Source: Thermaurantimonas aggregans
GTDB lineage: Bacteria; Bacteroidota; Bacteroidia; Flavobacteriales; Schleiferiaceae
Length of the DNA: 64,000 nt
Assembly (NCBI RefSeq): GCF_003851885.1
Contig: NZ_BHZE01000003.1
Location: 62,001 to 126,000, forward strand
Reading direction: 5' to 3'
In this document: positions 14,896 through 62,351 of the stretch, one piece after another
How the letters are laid out: the number at the start of each line of letters is the position of its first letter
How positions within the stretch are numbered: position 1 is the first letter of the stretch
Made by a program: the position numbers and the translations under genes
Notes under the pieces: generated by a model
The model's input: only the letters and a program-made list of their open reading frames with translations
Database searches by the model: none
Told to the model about the DNA's origin: nothing

Positions 14896-15430
14896 GGGCG
14901 TGCCCCAGGCTCGGCGCCTTTCCGTCTTTTTTAATATAGCATGTTCAGACAAAGAAGCCAAAGCTACCTTCGCCATAGGGCTTGCCCAGGCATGGAGCCG
15001 ACAGGCGCCTTCGCCATAGGGCTTGCCCAGGCATGGAGCCGACAGGCGCCTTCGCCACAGGGCTTGCTCAGGCATGGAGCCGACAGGCGCCTTCGCCATA
15101 GGGCTTGCCCAGGCATGGAGCCGACAGGCGCCTTCGCTGTAGGGCTTGCTCAGGCATGGAGCCGACAGGCGCCTTCGCCATAGGGCTTGCCCAGGCATGG
15201 AGCCGACAGGCGCCTTCGCCATAGGGCTTGCCCAGGCATGGAGCCGACAGGCGCCTTCGCCATAGGGCTTGCCCAGGCATGGAGCCGACAGGCGCCTTCG
15301 CCTGGGTCGGGCTGCTCCAGGGTACGCTTCGCTCCCGTGCTTTGGCACCGCTCCGCAGTGCCTTCGCACCGCGCTTGCGCGCGCCTTCCGCATCCCTCAC
15401 GCGAAGCGCGCTTCTTCGAAAGCGCGCTTC
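14896..15430 (+). repeat. GC-rich dispersed repeat element, expanded copy
   Basis: It starts GGGCGTGCCCCAGGC and ends around GCATCCCTCACGCG plus an 11-bp inverted repeat (15403-15413 and 15420-15430). The second half, TGGGTCGGGCTGCTCCAGGG...CCTTCGCACCGCGCTTGCG, is shared with the inverted copy at 47021-47161. In related genomes I recall elements with the same GGGCGT..CCC and GGTCGGGCT blocks around a variable stem. Here the variable stem has been replaced by a 41-bp tandem array. The gap 14873-15575 holds only this element. Confidence 0.75.
14972..15299 (+). repeat. Minisatellite: eight copies of a 41-bp unit
   Basis: Eight head-to-tail units start at 14972, 15013, 15054, 15095, 15136, 15177, 15218 and 15259. 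Each contains GGGCTTGCCCAGGCATGGAG and CCGACAGGCGCCTTC. Units differ only at two or three positions (GCCACAG, GCTGTAG and TGCTCAGG variants). The unit resembles the left arm of the host element (GGGCGTGCCCCAGGC..CGGCGCC). As 41 is not a multiple of 3, reading frames rotate between units; the long open frames here are artefacts. Confidence 0.95.
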
Positions 15431-15575: not shown

Positions 15576-17465
15576 TTAATTTTTATCATTCCATATTACT
15601 GAGTCTGCAAGGTTGGCCTGCTTTTCTATCACATCGTATTCACTTGACTTCCGTAGCCGAATCATCCGTTCTATTTCCCCATCCGTGCGACCCTTCCACC
15701 TGTTGAGTTGATAGAGATTCTTGTAAAAAGTTTCTTCGCTCACCGCACAAAATAGCTTCCAGTCATATATATCCACAAGGTTTTTAAGCATCAAAGCCAC
15801 GATGCCTTCCACGATTACCACATCTGTCTCAGATGTCAATTGATACATAGGAGGCGCAATTTTCCATGTAGGATTTCGCTGGTAACCCGTGGGCGTAACC
15901 GATTTGCCTTCTAGGAATTCTTTTAAATCTTTTTCCAGGCGATTTATTTGGTAAATCTCGTGTAAATCATGAGCTGAAGAGCGCTTTTCTGGCGCCAAAA
16001 TCCAGTGGTCGAGTTCCACTTTAAGTACACTTAAGCCATTTTTACGCAAGTGTCGCTGTATGTAGGTTGCTAATGTCGATTTTCCAGTGCCTGTATTGCC
16101 AGCTATGGCTATAACATATGGTTGTTTTGATAAATTTTGAATTTTTTTGAATAAGTCTTCGGCAAGGGTTTTATGAGGTTCATTTAGAATGTATTCTACG
16201 GCTTCAGCTACCGAATAAAAGGTAAAATCAGGCGCTATTCGCGTGTTTTTCAAACCATTTCCCGTCATTACTCCCGCGGTGGTACAACCAGCGCTTTTAC
16301 CGGCTTCTATATCGGACTCTCGATCGCCGATTATCCAACTTTCTTTTAAATCAATGTTGTACCGCTCAGCAGCTTTCAGTAGCATACCGGGTTTTGGCTT
16401 ACGGCATTCACACTCGATTTTCAATTCTACCACTTCGCCCTCAAATCCCTTGTCTGGATGATGCGGACAGTAATAGAGGTCGTCGAGATAGGCATGCCCC
16501 TCGGCAAGTTGAAAGTCGAGTTCGGCGTGAATTCGGTTAAGGCCAGCTTCGTCGGTGAGTCCACGAGCTACAACGCTCTGATTGGTCACTGAGATGGCCA
16601 GGTAGTCGCTTTGATTGATTTTTCGCACTGCTTCGGCTGCAAAAGGAAAAACCTTCAATTGCTCGGGTCGATGAATCAAATCGTTGTCTTCGTTGAGCAC
16701 CCCGTCGCGATCTAAGAAAATGGCCTTTTGCATTTGTCGCAGATTTCTTCGTTGTGGCTTTCCTGCTTTGAGATCTGCTTCTACCTTTTGAATGCGATCT
16801 GGAGTGCCCATGTCTTTGATGTATTCCGCAGTGCGCCACGCGTAAATGGGCAATTCCTTGCACAGCTTTGGCAATTGATGTCTTCCCCAATCGCTTTTAC
16901 CGGTAGGTAAGTAGTGTATAACTTCCTTTTCGACCAGATAAAGGGCTGCATTCACCAAATTCCTCACCCTAAGTTCTGGAGCATGTGGTTTGGGATGTAC
17001 CTGAATAACCCGATCCGAAAGATCGGTTTCTATCAAGTCGCTGTCGTAGGGATGATCGTTTGGATGAACGGCTATGGTCATTCGGGCTTTCTTGGCTTTA
17101 TGGAAGTCGTACATCCTTTTTAAATCCACGTCAAACACTACATCACCATAGAATACCCAGAAAATTTCTGGCAATTCAGCTTCTAGTACTTTAAAAGCTC
17201 CTGTGGTTCCGAGGGGCTCAGCCTCCCTGAAGTATTGGATTTCAACATTCCAGTTGTTGCCGTCTTTAAAGTATTCTTCGATTACATTACTCAAAAATCC
17301 TGTAATCAGATGAATGCGATTAATGCCATTTTGTACACATTGATTAATGATGTGTTCGAGCACTGGCTTGCCCATTAAAGGCAGCATGGGTTTGGGAAGG
17401 TTATAAGCCAGTTCCCCCATTCGAGTACCCTTGCCCCCGCATAAGATATACGCATTAGTCACCAT
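15576..17465 (-). CDS. Three-domain sugar nucleotidyltransferase / GmhB-like phosphatase / P-loop kinase
   Basis: A 629-aa fusion. Residues 1-235 form an NTP-transferase (CGGKGTRMGELAYNLPKPM at 9-27) of the HddC/RmlA class. Residues 246-425 form a HAD phosphatase of the GmhB type: DRDG at 252-255, TNQS, zinc ligands Cys333, His335, Cys352, Cys354, KPKPGM and GDRESD. Residues 450-629 form a PRK/uridine-kinase-like domain with P-loop GNTGTGKS at 456-463 and VVIVEGIVAL. The first two domains match the last two steps to GDP-D-glycero-D-manno-heptose. The third could phosphorylate a sugar phosphate; that is my inference. It overlaps folC by 11 nt. Confidence 0.88.
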   Translation of the reverse strand: MVTNAYILCGGKGTRMGELAYNLPKPMLPLMGKPVLEHIINQCVQNGINRIHLITGFLSNVIEEYFKDGNNWNVEIQYFREAEPLGTTGAFKVLEAELPEIFWVFYGDVVFDVDLKRMYDFHKAKKARMTIAVHPNDHPYDSDLIETDLSDRVIQVHPKPHAPELRVRNLVNAALYLVEKEVIHYLPTGKSDWGRHQLPKLCKELPIYAWRTAEYIKDMGTPDRIQKVEADLKAGKPQRRNLRQMQKAIFLDRDGVLNEDNDLIHRPEQLKVFPFAAEAVRKINQSDYLAISVTNQSVVARGLTDEAGLNRIHAELDFQLAEGHAYLDDLYYCPHHPDKGFEGEVVELKIECECRKPKPGMLLKAAERYNIDLKESWIIGDRESDIEAGKSAGCTTAGVMTGNGLKNTRIAPDFTFYSVAEAVEYILNEPHKTLAEDLFKKIQNLSKQPYVIAIAGNTGTGKSTLATYIQRHLRKNGLSVLKVELDHWILAPEKRSSAHDLHEIYQINRLEKDLKEFLEGKSVTPTGYQRNPTWKIAPPMYQLTSETDVVIVEGIVALMLKNLVDIYDWKLFCAVSEETFYKNLYQLNRWKGRTDGEIERMIRLRKSSEYDVIEKQANLADSVIWNDKN

Positions 17466-18699
17466 TTTCGAGATGTTTCAGTAGATCGCCCACCACAAAG
17501 GTGCTTCCACCTACGTAAATGGTATCATGTGGTTGAGCTCGTTCTAAAGCTCTTTGATAGGCAACTGGCACACTGGGCACCTTTTCGTAATTTAATTTAA
17601 AATCAGCAGCCGCTTTTTCCAATTGATCTAAAGGCATAGCGCGCGGAACGTCAGGCGTAGTAAAAATATAATAGGCGTCTTTTGGCAAGAGTGTGAAAAT
17701 CTTGATGGCATCTTTATCGCTCACCATACCCCACACGATGTAGAGTTTGCCTTTACGCACCTGTTCGAGCTGCTGAAAAACAATTTGAATACCGTCAAAG
17801 TTATGGGCCGTATCAGCGATTACGAGTGGCTGCTGTGAAAGTACCTCCCATCGACCGCGCAAACCAGTTAGTTGAACTACATGAGAAAAGGCGTATCGAA
17901 TCTGCTCTTCCGTCGGTTTAAGCGTCTCAGGCAGCAGCTGCAAGGCAGCATAGGCAGTTTTTGAATTTTTTAGCTGGTAAGATCCCTTGAGTTCACATTC
18001 GAGTAGAAGATCTTTATATGCTTCAGACGCAAATAAAAGGGGAGCATGTTTAGCTTGAGCGACATTTTTAAAAACATCTGCCACTTCCTCCTGCAGTTCT
18101 CCAATTACTATGGGCACTTCTGGTTTTATAATGCCGGCTTTTTCAAAAGCGATTTTCGGCAAAGTATCTCCTAAGAATTGCATGTGGTCCCATCCAATGT
18201 TTGTAATGACGCTCACTATTGGCGTTATCACATTGGTCGAATCCAGGCGCCCTCCCATACCTACTTCGATTACCGCCACATCTACCGCTTCTTGGGCGAA
18301 GTAATCGAAAGCCATTGCCATAGTGAGCTCAAAAAAGCTCGGATCAATGGCTTGGCCTTCAGCCATGAATCGATTGACAAAATCAACGACAAATTCCGAG
18401 CGTATTTTCTGTCCATTGATTTTAATTCGCTCTCTGAAGTCGTATAGGTGTGGACTGGTGTAAAGTCCGGTTTTCAAACCTTTCGTTTGCAGTGCAGCCG
18501 CAAGCAGATGTGATACGCTACCCTTGCCATTGGTGCCTCCTACATGCAGTGTCGGATACCGCTTATGTGGATGTCCAAGCCAATGCATAAGGGCAAGCGA
18601 GCGTTCTAAACCAGGCTTGTAGGCAGCAGCACCTTGCCTCTGAAAATAAGGAAGCCGGCTTGTGAGCCAGCTCAAAGCTTCCTGATAATTTGCAATCAA
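17455..18699 (-). CDS. folC: Folylpolyglutamate synthase / dihydrofolate synthase
   Basis: A 414-aa Mur-ligase-family enzyme that adds glutamate to dihydropteroate and to folates. The ATP-binding motif HVGGTNGKGSVSHLL is near residues 52-66, TSPHLYDFRERIKING follows, then EVGMGGRLDSTNVI and the HxxxLGDT-type segment GWDHMQFLGDTLPKIAFEKAGI. The C-terminal domain has VIADTAHNFDG. Length and motifs are normal. It overlaps the three-domain heptose-type gene by 11 nt and follows the OmpA-like gene by 3 nt, so the three are probably one transcript. Confidence 0.96.
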   Translation of the reverse strand: MIANYQEALSWLTSRLPYFQRQGAAAYKPGLERSLALMHWLGHPHKRYPTLHVGGTNGKGSVSHLLAAALQTKGLKTGLYTSPHLYDFRERIKINGQKIRSEFVVDFVNRFMAEGQAIDPSFFELTMAMAFDYFAQEAVDVAVIEVGMGGRLDSTNVITPIVSVITNIGWDHMQFLGDTLPKIAFEKAGIIKPEVPIVIGELQEEVADVFKNVAQAKHAPLLFASEAYKDLLLECELKGSYQLKNSKTAYAALQLLPETLKPTEEQIRYAFSHVVQLTGLRGRWEVLSQQPLVIADTAHNFDGIQIVFQQLEQVRKGKLYIVWGMVSDKDAIKIFTLLPKDAYYIFTTPDVPRAMPLDQLEKAAADFKLNYEKVPSVPVAYQRALERAQPHDTIYVGGSTFVVGDLLKHLENGD

Positions 18700-19776: not shown

Positions 19777-20910
19777 TCAAATTTTTCGAATTTGAGAAAT
19801 CATAGCCTTTAAAAACACCGGAATGTTAACCGAACTCATGATTTTTAAATCTTGTAACAAATTAGATTTTTCATTCAAAAAATTAAAAACCTCCTGAATT
19901 TTTAGTTTGAAAAATAAATCTTCAAAAATTTTATAAGCAGGTATTTTCTTTTCTTGAATTACGCGCAATAAAACGCTGTCATACAATCTATATTTATATC
20001 TTGGCTTATACAGTTTTTGAATCTTTCCTCTTTTAAGTTGCTGTATGTAAAAATGTGCTTGTTTTTGAATGAAATAAAACGTATAACCAGTCGATGCTTT
20101 AGTGGCTCCTCCTATAGTTCCAATGTTTATTACAGACGAAGAAATGTTTGATGTGTAAAGAATATCGCTCATCGGAATTACACCAAATTCTTTGTGTTTA
20201 ATCGTGTATTTTACTTTTCCAAAGACATTTTGAATATACTCATCTAAAAGATATTCATATTCTTCGTCTTTTAACATATTTTCTGAGAATATGGTATATT
20301 CAACCATAGCCTCTTTTTCACTGTATGGCAAAATGTAGCAAAATCTGCATTCATTGTATTGATCGATTGTAAAATCCATTAATGTTGCCACATTAGCATC
20401 AAAAATAGGTTCTGCTGTTTCTATCTGCCAACCTTTAAAGTGCTGTAGAAGGGTAATATTTCCTTCCTTATATCGAATCGCATTACCAATACTGCTAAAA
20501 ATATGTTCACCTCGGTAAAGCGATTTTTCGGTCACTATCGTTCCATGATTTCGTATTTCTTCAATCGATTCGTAAAGAATTTTAAAATTCTTTTTTGATG
20601 CTAAAATATTTAAAACATAAGCATAAAAATCATTGCTTTTTATCAAATGATAGCTGAATGGATGAATGTCAAAAATATCTTTTTTTTGGGGTGTTTTGAT
20701 CTGAATTTTTTTCCATGATTTAGAAATTATTTCTGGAAATATGTGTTCATTTTCTGTCCAAAAGCACCACGTTCTATCGTAAGAAGTCTTAGGCTCTTTA
20801 TCGATTATTAGGATTTTTTTGTTGTCAAAAAATGGATCGATAGCCATGTAATAAGCCATGCTTAGGCCAGCTGCACCAGCTCCAGCTATTATGTAGTCGA
20901 ATGTTTCCAA
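19777..20910 (-). CDS. crtY: Lycopene cyclase family protein
   Basis: A 377-aa FAD/NAD-binding protein of the CrtY/CrtL class, which closes the ends of lycopene to beta-rings in carotenoid synthesis. The dinucleotide fold is at residues 5-22 (YIIAGAGAAGLSMAYYM). Further family segments are DRTWCFW near 45-51, YCRFCYILPYS-like ECRFCYILPYSEKEAMVEYT near 213, and GTIGGATKASTGYTFYFIQ near 290. Length is close to normal. No other carotenoid gene is nearby. The gene is more AT-rich than its upstream neighbours. The symbol follows the family; the ring type is not proven. Confidence 0.82.
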   Translation of the reverse strand: METFDYIIAGAGAAGLSMAYYMAIDPFFDNKKILIIDKEPKTSYDRTWCFWTENEHIFPEIISKSWKKIQIKTPQKKDIFDIHPFSYHLIKSNDFYAYVLNILASKKNFKILYESIEEIRNHGTIVTEKSLYRGEHIFSSIGNAIRYKEGNITLLQHFKGWQIETAEPIFDANVATLMDFTIDQYNECRFCYILPYSEKEAMVEYTIFSENMLKDEEYEYLLDEYIQNVFGKVKYTIKHKEFGVIPMSDILYTSNISSSVINIGTIGGATKASTGYTFYFIQKQAHFYIQQLKRGKIQKLYKPRYKYRLYDSVLLRVIQEKKIPAYKIFEDLFFKLKIQEVFNFLNEKSNLLQDLKIMSSVNIPVFLKAMISQIRKI

Positions 20911-45604: not shown

Positions 45605-46210
45605 TTATTTGATTCGCTGGTCGTAAACAGCGCCCATTCCGGGATTTTCACCTAAAAGGGTATTTGTGATGTATCGTTTGATGGCGTGAAAGGTCATCAT
45701 GTGGAGGTCTTCGACGATTTCCATGTCTGACATTGGAATGTGAATGCTGATGTCGGCTATTTGGGCACATAGTCCACCCTTGTAACCGGTAAGTGCTGCT
45801 GTTTTTATGCCTTGATTTTTAGCCCATTGGAGTGCATTTACAATGTTTTTTGAGTTGCCACTTCCAGAAAGACCGATTACCAAATCGCCGGGTCGAGCAA
45901 AGTTTTTGAGTTGCTCTTCGAAGATGGCTTCGTAACTGATGTCATTTGAGATAGCCATTAAGGCGGGAATATTGTCGTTTAGGCAGATGAATCGGAAACG
46001 TTTCTCAAGGCCAAAAGAAGCACCTTTTACATAGTCGCCGGCTACGTGCGAAGCTGTGGCACCGCTACCGCCGTTGCCCATAGTATAAATGGTGCTTCCT
46101 TCGTGGTAAGCGTGCATGATGGCTTCTGCCAGCTCAGCTACTTTATTTGTTGGTATTAGGCTTACAGCATTTTGGGAATTTTGTAAGTATGTTTCGATGT
46201 CTTTAATCAT
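45605..46210 (-). CDS. gmhA: SIS-domain isomerase, GmhA-like
   Basis: A 201-aa sugar-phosphate isomerase of the GmhA type, which turns sedoheptulose 7-phosphate into D-glycero-D-manno-heptose 7-phosphate. The SIS motifs are TMGNGGSGATASHVAGDYVK near 44 and GDLVIGLSGSGNSKNIVNAL near 108, with a Glu-containing EDLHMMTFHAIKRYI helix near 168 that supplies the catalytic His. The product would feed the GmhB and HddC domains of the protein at 15576-17465, 28 kb away. It overlaps the esterase gene by ATGA. The symbol follows family likeness. Confidence 0.8.
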   Translation of the reverse strand: MIKDIETYLQNSQNAVSLIPTNKVAELAEAIMHAYHEGSTIYTMGNGGSGATASHVAGDYVKGASFGLEKRFRFICLNDNIPALMAISNDISYEAIFEEQLKNFARPGDLVIGLSGSGNSKNIVNALQWAKNQGIKTAALTGYKGGLCAQIADISIHIPMSDMEIVEDLHMMTFHAIKRYITNTLLGENPGMGAVYDQRIK

Positions 46211-61330: not shown

Positions 61331-62351
61331 AGGAAAGTTTTTTGGTAATAAGGTTTAAAAATTCAATTTTGTTTTCAATATCTACTGTAAGTTTAAGTAC
61401 ATAAATCGTGTTGTTAAACTTTTCAGCTAACACAGAGGGCAGTTTTACATACTCTTTGTCAGTCATTATGCATAGAGCGTCCTTTCTGTTGCAAGTTTCA
61501 AAAATTGCTTCCCATTCGCGATGGGATATTGGATAATGGTCTTTAAACAGAAATTTTTCTATGATTTTAAGATTCCATTGACTCAAAAAATTTAGAACAT
61601 AAGATGGATTGGCTATCGTGGTAACAATCACGACATCCCTTTTATTTTCTGGCAATGGAGGAAAGAAATAATTGTGATTGTGTGAAAAAAATATTGGGGC
61701 ATTAGAATATTTCTGGAGAGAGGAGATGATTTTTTCTTTTTCAGCTGTAGTCGCTGCCACTGGAGTCTTTGTTACTACGATGGCATCCACATATTTAGCT
61801 CTGCTTTTTACATCTCGAAGGGTTCCTATTGGCCAGAGAGCATCTGCGCTAAAGGGCTGATTCCACGTTGTGAGTAAAATTTTTATATCAGGAACAATGG
61901 CACGATGTTGCAGGGCATCATCGAGAATCACCACCTGGGTATCCGGAAATTTTTGCAGAATTTTTTTTACACCATCGACCCGCCTTTCGCATACTGCCAC
62001 AGGAATGTTTGGCAGATTTTTTTTTAACAATAAAGGTTCGTCTCCAACTTCCAAAAAAGCAGAAGTATCATCTACCCACAAGAATCCTTTTGACACTCGG
62101 CCATATCCCCTGGAGAGAATAGCAATTTTAAATTCATTGCTCAGTTCTTTTGTCAAAAAAAGAGTCATCGGTGTCTTTCCCGTACCACCTAGCGCAAGGT
62201 TACCAATTGCAAGGACTTTCGTTTTTTGGAAGTTTTCCGAAAAAAGCCATTTGCGATCGTATAAAAAATGCCTTAAGTAGATGAGGAATTTTAATAAAAA
62301 ACTGACCGAAGAGAATAGGATTTTAAAAACTTTGTTATGCGATTTTTTCAA
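61323..62351 (-). CDS. lpxK: Tetraacyldisaccharide 4'-kinase
   Basis: A 342-aa kinase that phosphorylates the 4' position of the lipid A disaccharide at the inner membrane. One N-terminal amphipathic or membrane helix is followed by the Walker A region AIGNLALGGTGKTPMTLFLT near residue 50, LSRGYGRVSKGFLWVDD, GDEPLLLKKNLPNIPVAVCE and VVILDDALQHRAIVPDIKIL, in which LDDALQHR is a family motif. It is the first gene of a minus-strand group with the T9SS cargo and methyltransferase genes, and diverges from the receiver gene at 62399. Confidence 0.95.
   Translation of the reverse strand: MKKSHNKVFKILFSSVSFLLKFLIYLRHFLYDRKWLFSENFQKTKVLAIGNLALGGTGKTPMTLFLTKELSNEFKIAILSRGYGRVSKGFLWVDDTSAFLEVGDEPLLLKKNLPNIPVAVCERRVDGVKKILQKFPDTQVVILDDALQHRAIVPDIKILLTTWNQPFSADALWPIGTLRDVKSRAKYVDAIVVTKTPVAATTAEKEKIISSLQKYSNAPIFFSHNHNYFFPPLPENKRDVVIVTTIANPSYVLNFLSQWNLKIIEKFLFKDHYPISHREWEAIFETCNRKDALCIMTDKEYVKLPSVLAEKFNNTIYVLKLTVDIENKIEFLNLITKKLSYD

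Follow-up and report, generated by a model that had tools for sequence, protein, structure and literature searches.

Gene and domain architecture

We analysed a stretch of 64,000 nucleotides (the window) from Thermaurantimonas aggregans, positions 62,001 to 126,000 of contig NZ_BHZE01000003.1 in a genome that is 99.9% complete, and concentrated on a gene at 15576-17465 on the minus strand. The gene starts with ATG and encodes a protein of 629 amino acids with an HddC-like, a GmhB-like and a PRK-fold kinase domain; the plus strand across the same interval is packed with stop codons. Domains were called with Pfam at its curated cut-offs, and NCBIfam models were used for the finer class. All three domains exceed the Pfam cut-offs, their active-site motifs are intact, and AlphaFold2 modelled the whole chain with a predicted local distance difference test score (pLDDT) of 91.8 and a predicted template modelling score of 0.91. 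These results agree with the initial annotation, made from the sequence without database searches, which had described a nucleotidyltransferase, a HAD phosphatase and a P-loop kinase in one protein. Homologues with all three domains occur in about 20 related genomes, with 43-64% identity over the full length, and the conservation of this architecture is far beyond chance.

The sugar-1-phosphate nucleotidyltransferase domain occupies residues 1-235 (16761-17465, minus strand) and retains the motifs GGxGTR, PKP, GD(V) and KDMG. Pfam NTP_transferase covers residues 6-232 (1.7e-30), and the solved relatives are sugar-1-phosphate nucleotidyltransferases. The closest NCBIfam model is that of mannose-1-phosphate guanylyltransferase (147 bits); the HddC equivalog model NF049965 gave 88 bits against a cut-off of 300. 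The genomic company typical of HddC, namely HddA and GmhA, is present. By sequence, the domain would be HddC-like only, of the right type and under the equivalog line.

The second domain, a GmhB-like HAD-IIIA phosphatase, spans residues 245-424 (16194-16733, minus strand), with Pfam Hydrolase_like at residues 354-421 (8e-16). Its closest NCBIfam class is GmhB, with scores close below the equivalog cut-offs (PRK08942, 165.2 bits against 178; TIGR00213, 123 against 149.6), and its best solved relatives are the GmhB structures 3l8e and 2gmw. Residue conservation was counted in 32 three-domain proteins from Bacteroidota, Alphaproteobacteria (including Rhizobium plasmids) and Myxococcota. The catalytic residues Asp252, Asp254, Thr294, Lys356, Asp381 and Asp385 are invariant in this set, as is the zinc-type set Cys333, His335, Cys352 and Cys354. 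The match of the first two domains to HddC and GmhB proposed in the initial annotation thus holds for the type, by nearest models and by genomic company, but not at the level of the equivalog cut-offs.

The PRK-fold kinase domain

The third domain extends over residues 445-625 (15591-16133, minus strand) and matches Pfam PRK (PF00485) at residues 451-624 (2e-10; 41 bits against a cut-off of 22). Modelled alone with AlphaFold2, it reached a pLDDT of 90.9. Its sequence relatives with solved structures are uridine kinases and phosphoribulokinases, and the model aligned with phosphoribulokinase (Z 19.2, root-mean-square deviation (rmsd) 2.6, 176 residues aligned), Thermus uridine kinase (Z 19.1, rmsd 2.8, 173 aligned) and pantothenate kinase (Z 18.6, rmsd 2.4, 185 aligned). 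As modelled, the domain would be equally close to phosphoribulokinase and to the Thermus uridine kinase, with pantothenate kinase near. The Pfam and structural matches confirm its earlier placement in the PRK/uridine-kinase class.

Four residues of the domain are invariant in the 32 proteins: Lys462 of the P-loop (Walker A, residues 456-463; 16077-16100, minus strand), Asp486 (16008-16010, minus strand), which aligns with the Thermus uridine kinase and matches the catalytic Asp of uridine kinases, Gly554 and Glu609. Trp488, Arg495, Tyr528 and Arg605 are each found in 31 of the 32. In a phylogenetic tree the fused kinase domains formed one clade (Shimodaira-Hasegawa-like approximate likelihood ratio test (SH-aLRT) 97) that excludes both the uridine kinases and a small group of kinases encoded close to GH100-like genes; several branches in it are long. 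The kinase domain changes fastest, with a mean pairwise identity of 0.37 versus 0.52 and 0.62 for the other two domains. These patterns characterise the third domain as a genuine, conserved and old kinase domain of the ATP type.

Side observations were made on other PRK-family kinases. At two loci (L226:2961-6114 and L229:2198-5408) such a kinase adjoins a GH100 invertase-like gene, identified by Pfam match, and a major facilitator superfamily sugar transporter, and at another (L228:2138-4116) a kinase and a GH100 invertase-like hydrolase, assigned by likeness, lie in one frame. These neighbours hint that kinases of the PRK fold act on sugars in the bacteria concerned.

The remaining steps of GDP-heptose synthesis

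The GDP-heptose pathway proceeds in the order GmhA, HddA, GmhB and HddC (PMC10680097). A GmhA-like sedoheptulose-7-phosphate isomerase of 201 amino acids is encoded in the window at 45605-46210 on the minus strand (TIGR00441, 5.6e-34, under the equivalog cut-off); with the GmhA genes that neighbour the three-domain gene in relatives it shares 51-60% identity, and the genome contains no other strong match to SIS_2, so that its earlier identification stands. Three GHMP matches were found in the source genome. One of them, a protein of 327 amino acids encoded on another contig than the three-domain gene (C27:4293-5273), has HddA as its best NCBIfam model (1.9e-51; 175 bits, under the 600-bit cut-off), and its best solved relatives are 3k85, named D-glycero-D-manno-heptose 1-phosphate kinase, and 4n3o, a heptose 7-phosphate kinase. 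The other two, side by side on contig C23, look by eye like isoprenoid-pathway kinases.

As a candidate for the HldE route we considered the sole PfkB protein (C1:25368-26156), whose gene adjoins a kbl-like gene; it was rejected, with 59 bits versus 345 for the HldE kinase model. As this only PfkB protein falls far under the HldE models, no HldE was found in the source genome. With an HddA-like kinase present and the PfkB protein not being HldE, the four-enzyme GDP-heptose pathway is represented without the third domain. The initial annotation had proposed that this domain replaces HddA by an unrelated fold. The search of the genome for hddA or hldE that it suggested has now yielded an HddA-like kinase only, and this GHMP kinase on C27 contradicts the replacement by a criterion that the initial annotation itself had named. 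Since HddA is present elsewhere in the genome, the third domain does something else, and its job differs from that of HddA.

Gene neighbourhood, co-occurrence and loss of the kinase domain

Most relatives in the family carry hddA and gmhA immediately after the three-domain gene, an order that recurs in Bacteroidales (L130-L133) and also in one divergent Bacteroidota genome (L100). Within the family the gene and HddA occur together in 24 genomes, the gene only in 2, HddA only in 1 and neither in 10 (Fisher p = 2e-6, a value that overstates the evidence because the genomes are related). Of the two gene-only genomes, one is 70% complete and the other has the gene itself broken over contigs.

Six relatives carry a two-domain version that lacks the kinase domain, and HddA is kept in all six, which makes the kinase domain dispensable for the four-enzyme pathway. 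A tree built from the nucleotidyltransferase and HAD domains puts the two-domain versions at two distinct positions inside the three-domain clade, which is most simply explained if the kinase domain was lost twice independently. A hidden Markov model of the fused domain detected no stand-alone kinase near the two-domain genes, and among the relatives compared, genomes without the fusion do not carry a separate PRK-type kinase instead. The two-domain genomes have a smaller mean size (p = 0.014, without correction for kinship).

In the window, a folC-like gene at 17455-18699 shares 11 bases at its end with the three-domain reading frame. The interval that separates the three-domain gene from a TolB-like gene holds, at 14967-15302, a GC-rich unit of 41 bases repeated in tandem in 8.2 copies that are 96% alike. 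A reading frame at 19777-20910 on the minus strand resembles by eye a lycopene cyclase, a candidate assignment that would suggest a carotenoid-making organism.

Spread beyond the family

Proteins with the three domains were found in Bacteroidota, on Rhizobium plasmids, and in Methylovirgula, Nitrospirillum and Polyangium, the last with a shortened kinase. On the Rhizobium plasmids an annotated GHMP kinase adjoins the gene. A nine-gene heptose/glycan operon on the Rhizobium phaseoli plasmid pRphaR630a (L249:5191-16659), annotated in general terms only, encodes in order a SIS protein, a glycosyltransferase, a protein of unknown family, a flippase-like protein, an epimerase, the three-domain protein, the GHMP kinase and two oxidoreductases. 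In Methylovirgula the gene lies beside rfbFGH, and both neighbourhoods point to a surface glycan. It should be noted that in Methylovirgula pHY1 (L250:9067-10911) the GGxGTR motif lies outside the annotated reading frame and the tblastn match begins further upstream; the annotated start seems too late. The homologue of Nitrospirillum amazonense (L171:5935-7746) has a degenerate nucleotidyltransferase domain and intact HAD phosphatase and kinase motifs, so that phosphatase and kinase seem to have been kept without nucleotidyl transfer. This protein is a poor fit to every model.

Proposed role of the protein and of its kinase domain

The three-domain protein is best described as a variant of the GDP-heptose pathway with an extra conserved kinase domain, the reactions of the pathway being assigned here by homology. 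Its HddC-like and GmhB-like domains probably act in the GDP-heptose route, with GmhA and HddA as separate proteins: GmhA and the GHMP kinase HddA would carry out the first two steps, and one chain with the GmhB-like and HddC-like domains would finish GDP-heptose, for which the ATP-type kinase of the third domain would not be required. Some points weigh against this assignment. The nucleotidyltransferase domain stays under the HddC cut-off, so that the choice of GDP as the nucleotide depends on HddA being present alongside; in the source lineage (G000, G014) the three genes form no operon but are scattered; and Nitrospirillum (L171, G456) has the three-domain protein and no HddA in its genome, so that the two do not always occur together.

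That the third domain takes the place of HddA we consider highly improbable. It does share a polypeptide with the two enzymes that come next in the pathway, it is a conserved kinase, and Nitrospirillum has the protein without HddA. An HddA-like kinase is nevertheless present in the source genome and in nearly all gene-bearing relatives, often encoded by the gene that follows; the PRK-fold domain disappeared from two lineages, which retained HddA and the other two activities; and the degenerate nucleotidyltransferase domain of Nitrospirillum implies that its protein would make no GDP-heptose. The fold, too, is that of a PRK/uridine-kinase P-loop kinase and not of a GHMP kinase. PRK-clan kinases target primary hydroxyls and are not known to act on the anomeric one.

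The domain might also be the organism's uridine/cytidine kinase, fused to heptose enzymes by accident, as uridine kinases are among the nearest solved folds and the source genome has no PRK-family match other than the fused domain. This is improbable as well: the uridine kinase model PRK05480 gave 44.4 bits against a cut-off of 180, the fused kinases stand in a clade of their own, and the DHPxxxx motif that contains the ribose-binding Asp (Asp84 of human UCK2; PMC9163393) is absent or not conserved, the aligned position being variable. Moreover, two Bacteroidales genomes and Polyangium (G452, G454, G455) have both the fusion and a separate ordinary uridine kinase, and since relatives without the fusion are also without a uridine kinase, the fused domain fills no gap. 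A regulatory or structural nucleotide-binding module with no kinase turnover would suit the fastest-changing of the three domains, which was lost twice and in whose Polyangium copy the conserved Trp, Arg and Tyr are missing. The conservation of Lys462, Asp486 and Glu609 throughout the set, and of Arg495, Tyr528 and Arg605 in all but one protein, is the pattern of catalysis and not of binding alone, and we regard such a module as unlikely.

For the GDP-heptose protein with an additional kinase, the chemistry of the fold offers a lead. Phosphoribulokinase, pantothenate kinase and nicotinamide riboside kinase act on primary hydroxyls, and D-glycero-D-manno-heptose has a single one, O-7. Uridine kinase, of the same PRK clan, likewise phosphorylates a primary hydroxyl (PMC9163393). 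As PRK-fold kinases take primary hydroxyls and the heptose offers only O-7, we tentatively propose that the third domain may phosphorylate a heptose-type substrate at a primary hydroxyl; in the simplest case it would act on free heptose, sedoheptulose or GDP-heptose, at O-7. This is the same position that the HAD domain dephosphorylates. Acting on free heptose or sedoheptulose, the kinase would provide a salvage entry into the pathway; alternatively, its substrate would be the finished GDP-heptose. That either reaction constitutes an undescribed step of heptose metabolism is more doubtful still.

GDP-heptose supplies the surface glycans of many bacteria. If the proposal is true, phosphorylation of GDP-heptose at O-7 would bring phosphorylated heptose into these glycans, and the phosphatase would be opposed, within one chain, by a sugar kinase with the PRK/uridine-kinase fold. 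A kinase domain conserved in three phyla, and also on plasmids of Rhizobium, suggests an unrecognised reaction or control point, and its natural losses make its role testable by comparison of strains. The proteins are named only 'HAD-IIIA family hydrolase' in the plasmid records examined, which calls for caution with such annotations.

Comparison with known systems

No description of a three-domain protein of this kind was found in the open-access literature. All four activities of the Campylobacter jejuni GDP-heptose pathway (PMC10680097) are also represented here, two of them in the three-domain protein; in C. jejuni, however, the enzymes are described as separate gene products, whereas the present protein joins HddC and GmhB in one chain and adds a kinase domain. 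Two-domain fusions of nucleotidyltransferase and HAD phosphatase from Firmicutes, Spirochaetes and Bacteroidota have the same domain order, 40-50% identity and HddA and GmhA as neighbours, but are without the kinase domain. The Rhizobium plasmid proteins (e.g. WP_064828977.1) have the three domains over their whole length at 32.6% identity; they adjoin a GHMP kinase and share an operon with a SIS gene, an operon that additionally includes the glycosyltransferase, flippase-like protein, epimerase and two oxidoreductases. FKP resembles the three-domain protein as a sugar kinase fused to a nucleotidyltransferase that forms a GDP-sugar in a salvage route (PMC12732313). It differs in that its kinase has the GHMP fold and that it contains neither a HAD nor a PRK-fold domain. 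The proposed salvage of heptose would proceed by analogy, much as FKP salvages fucose.
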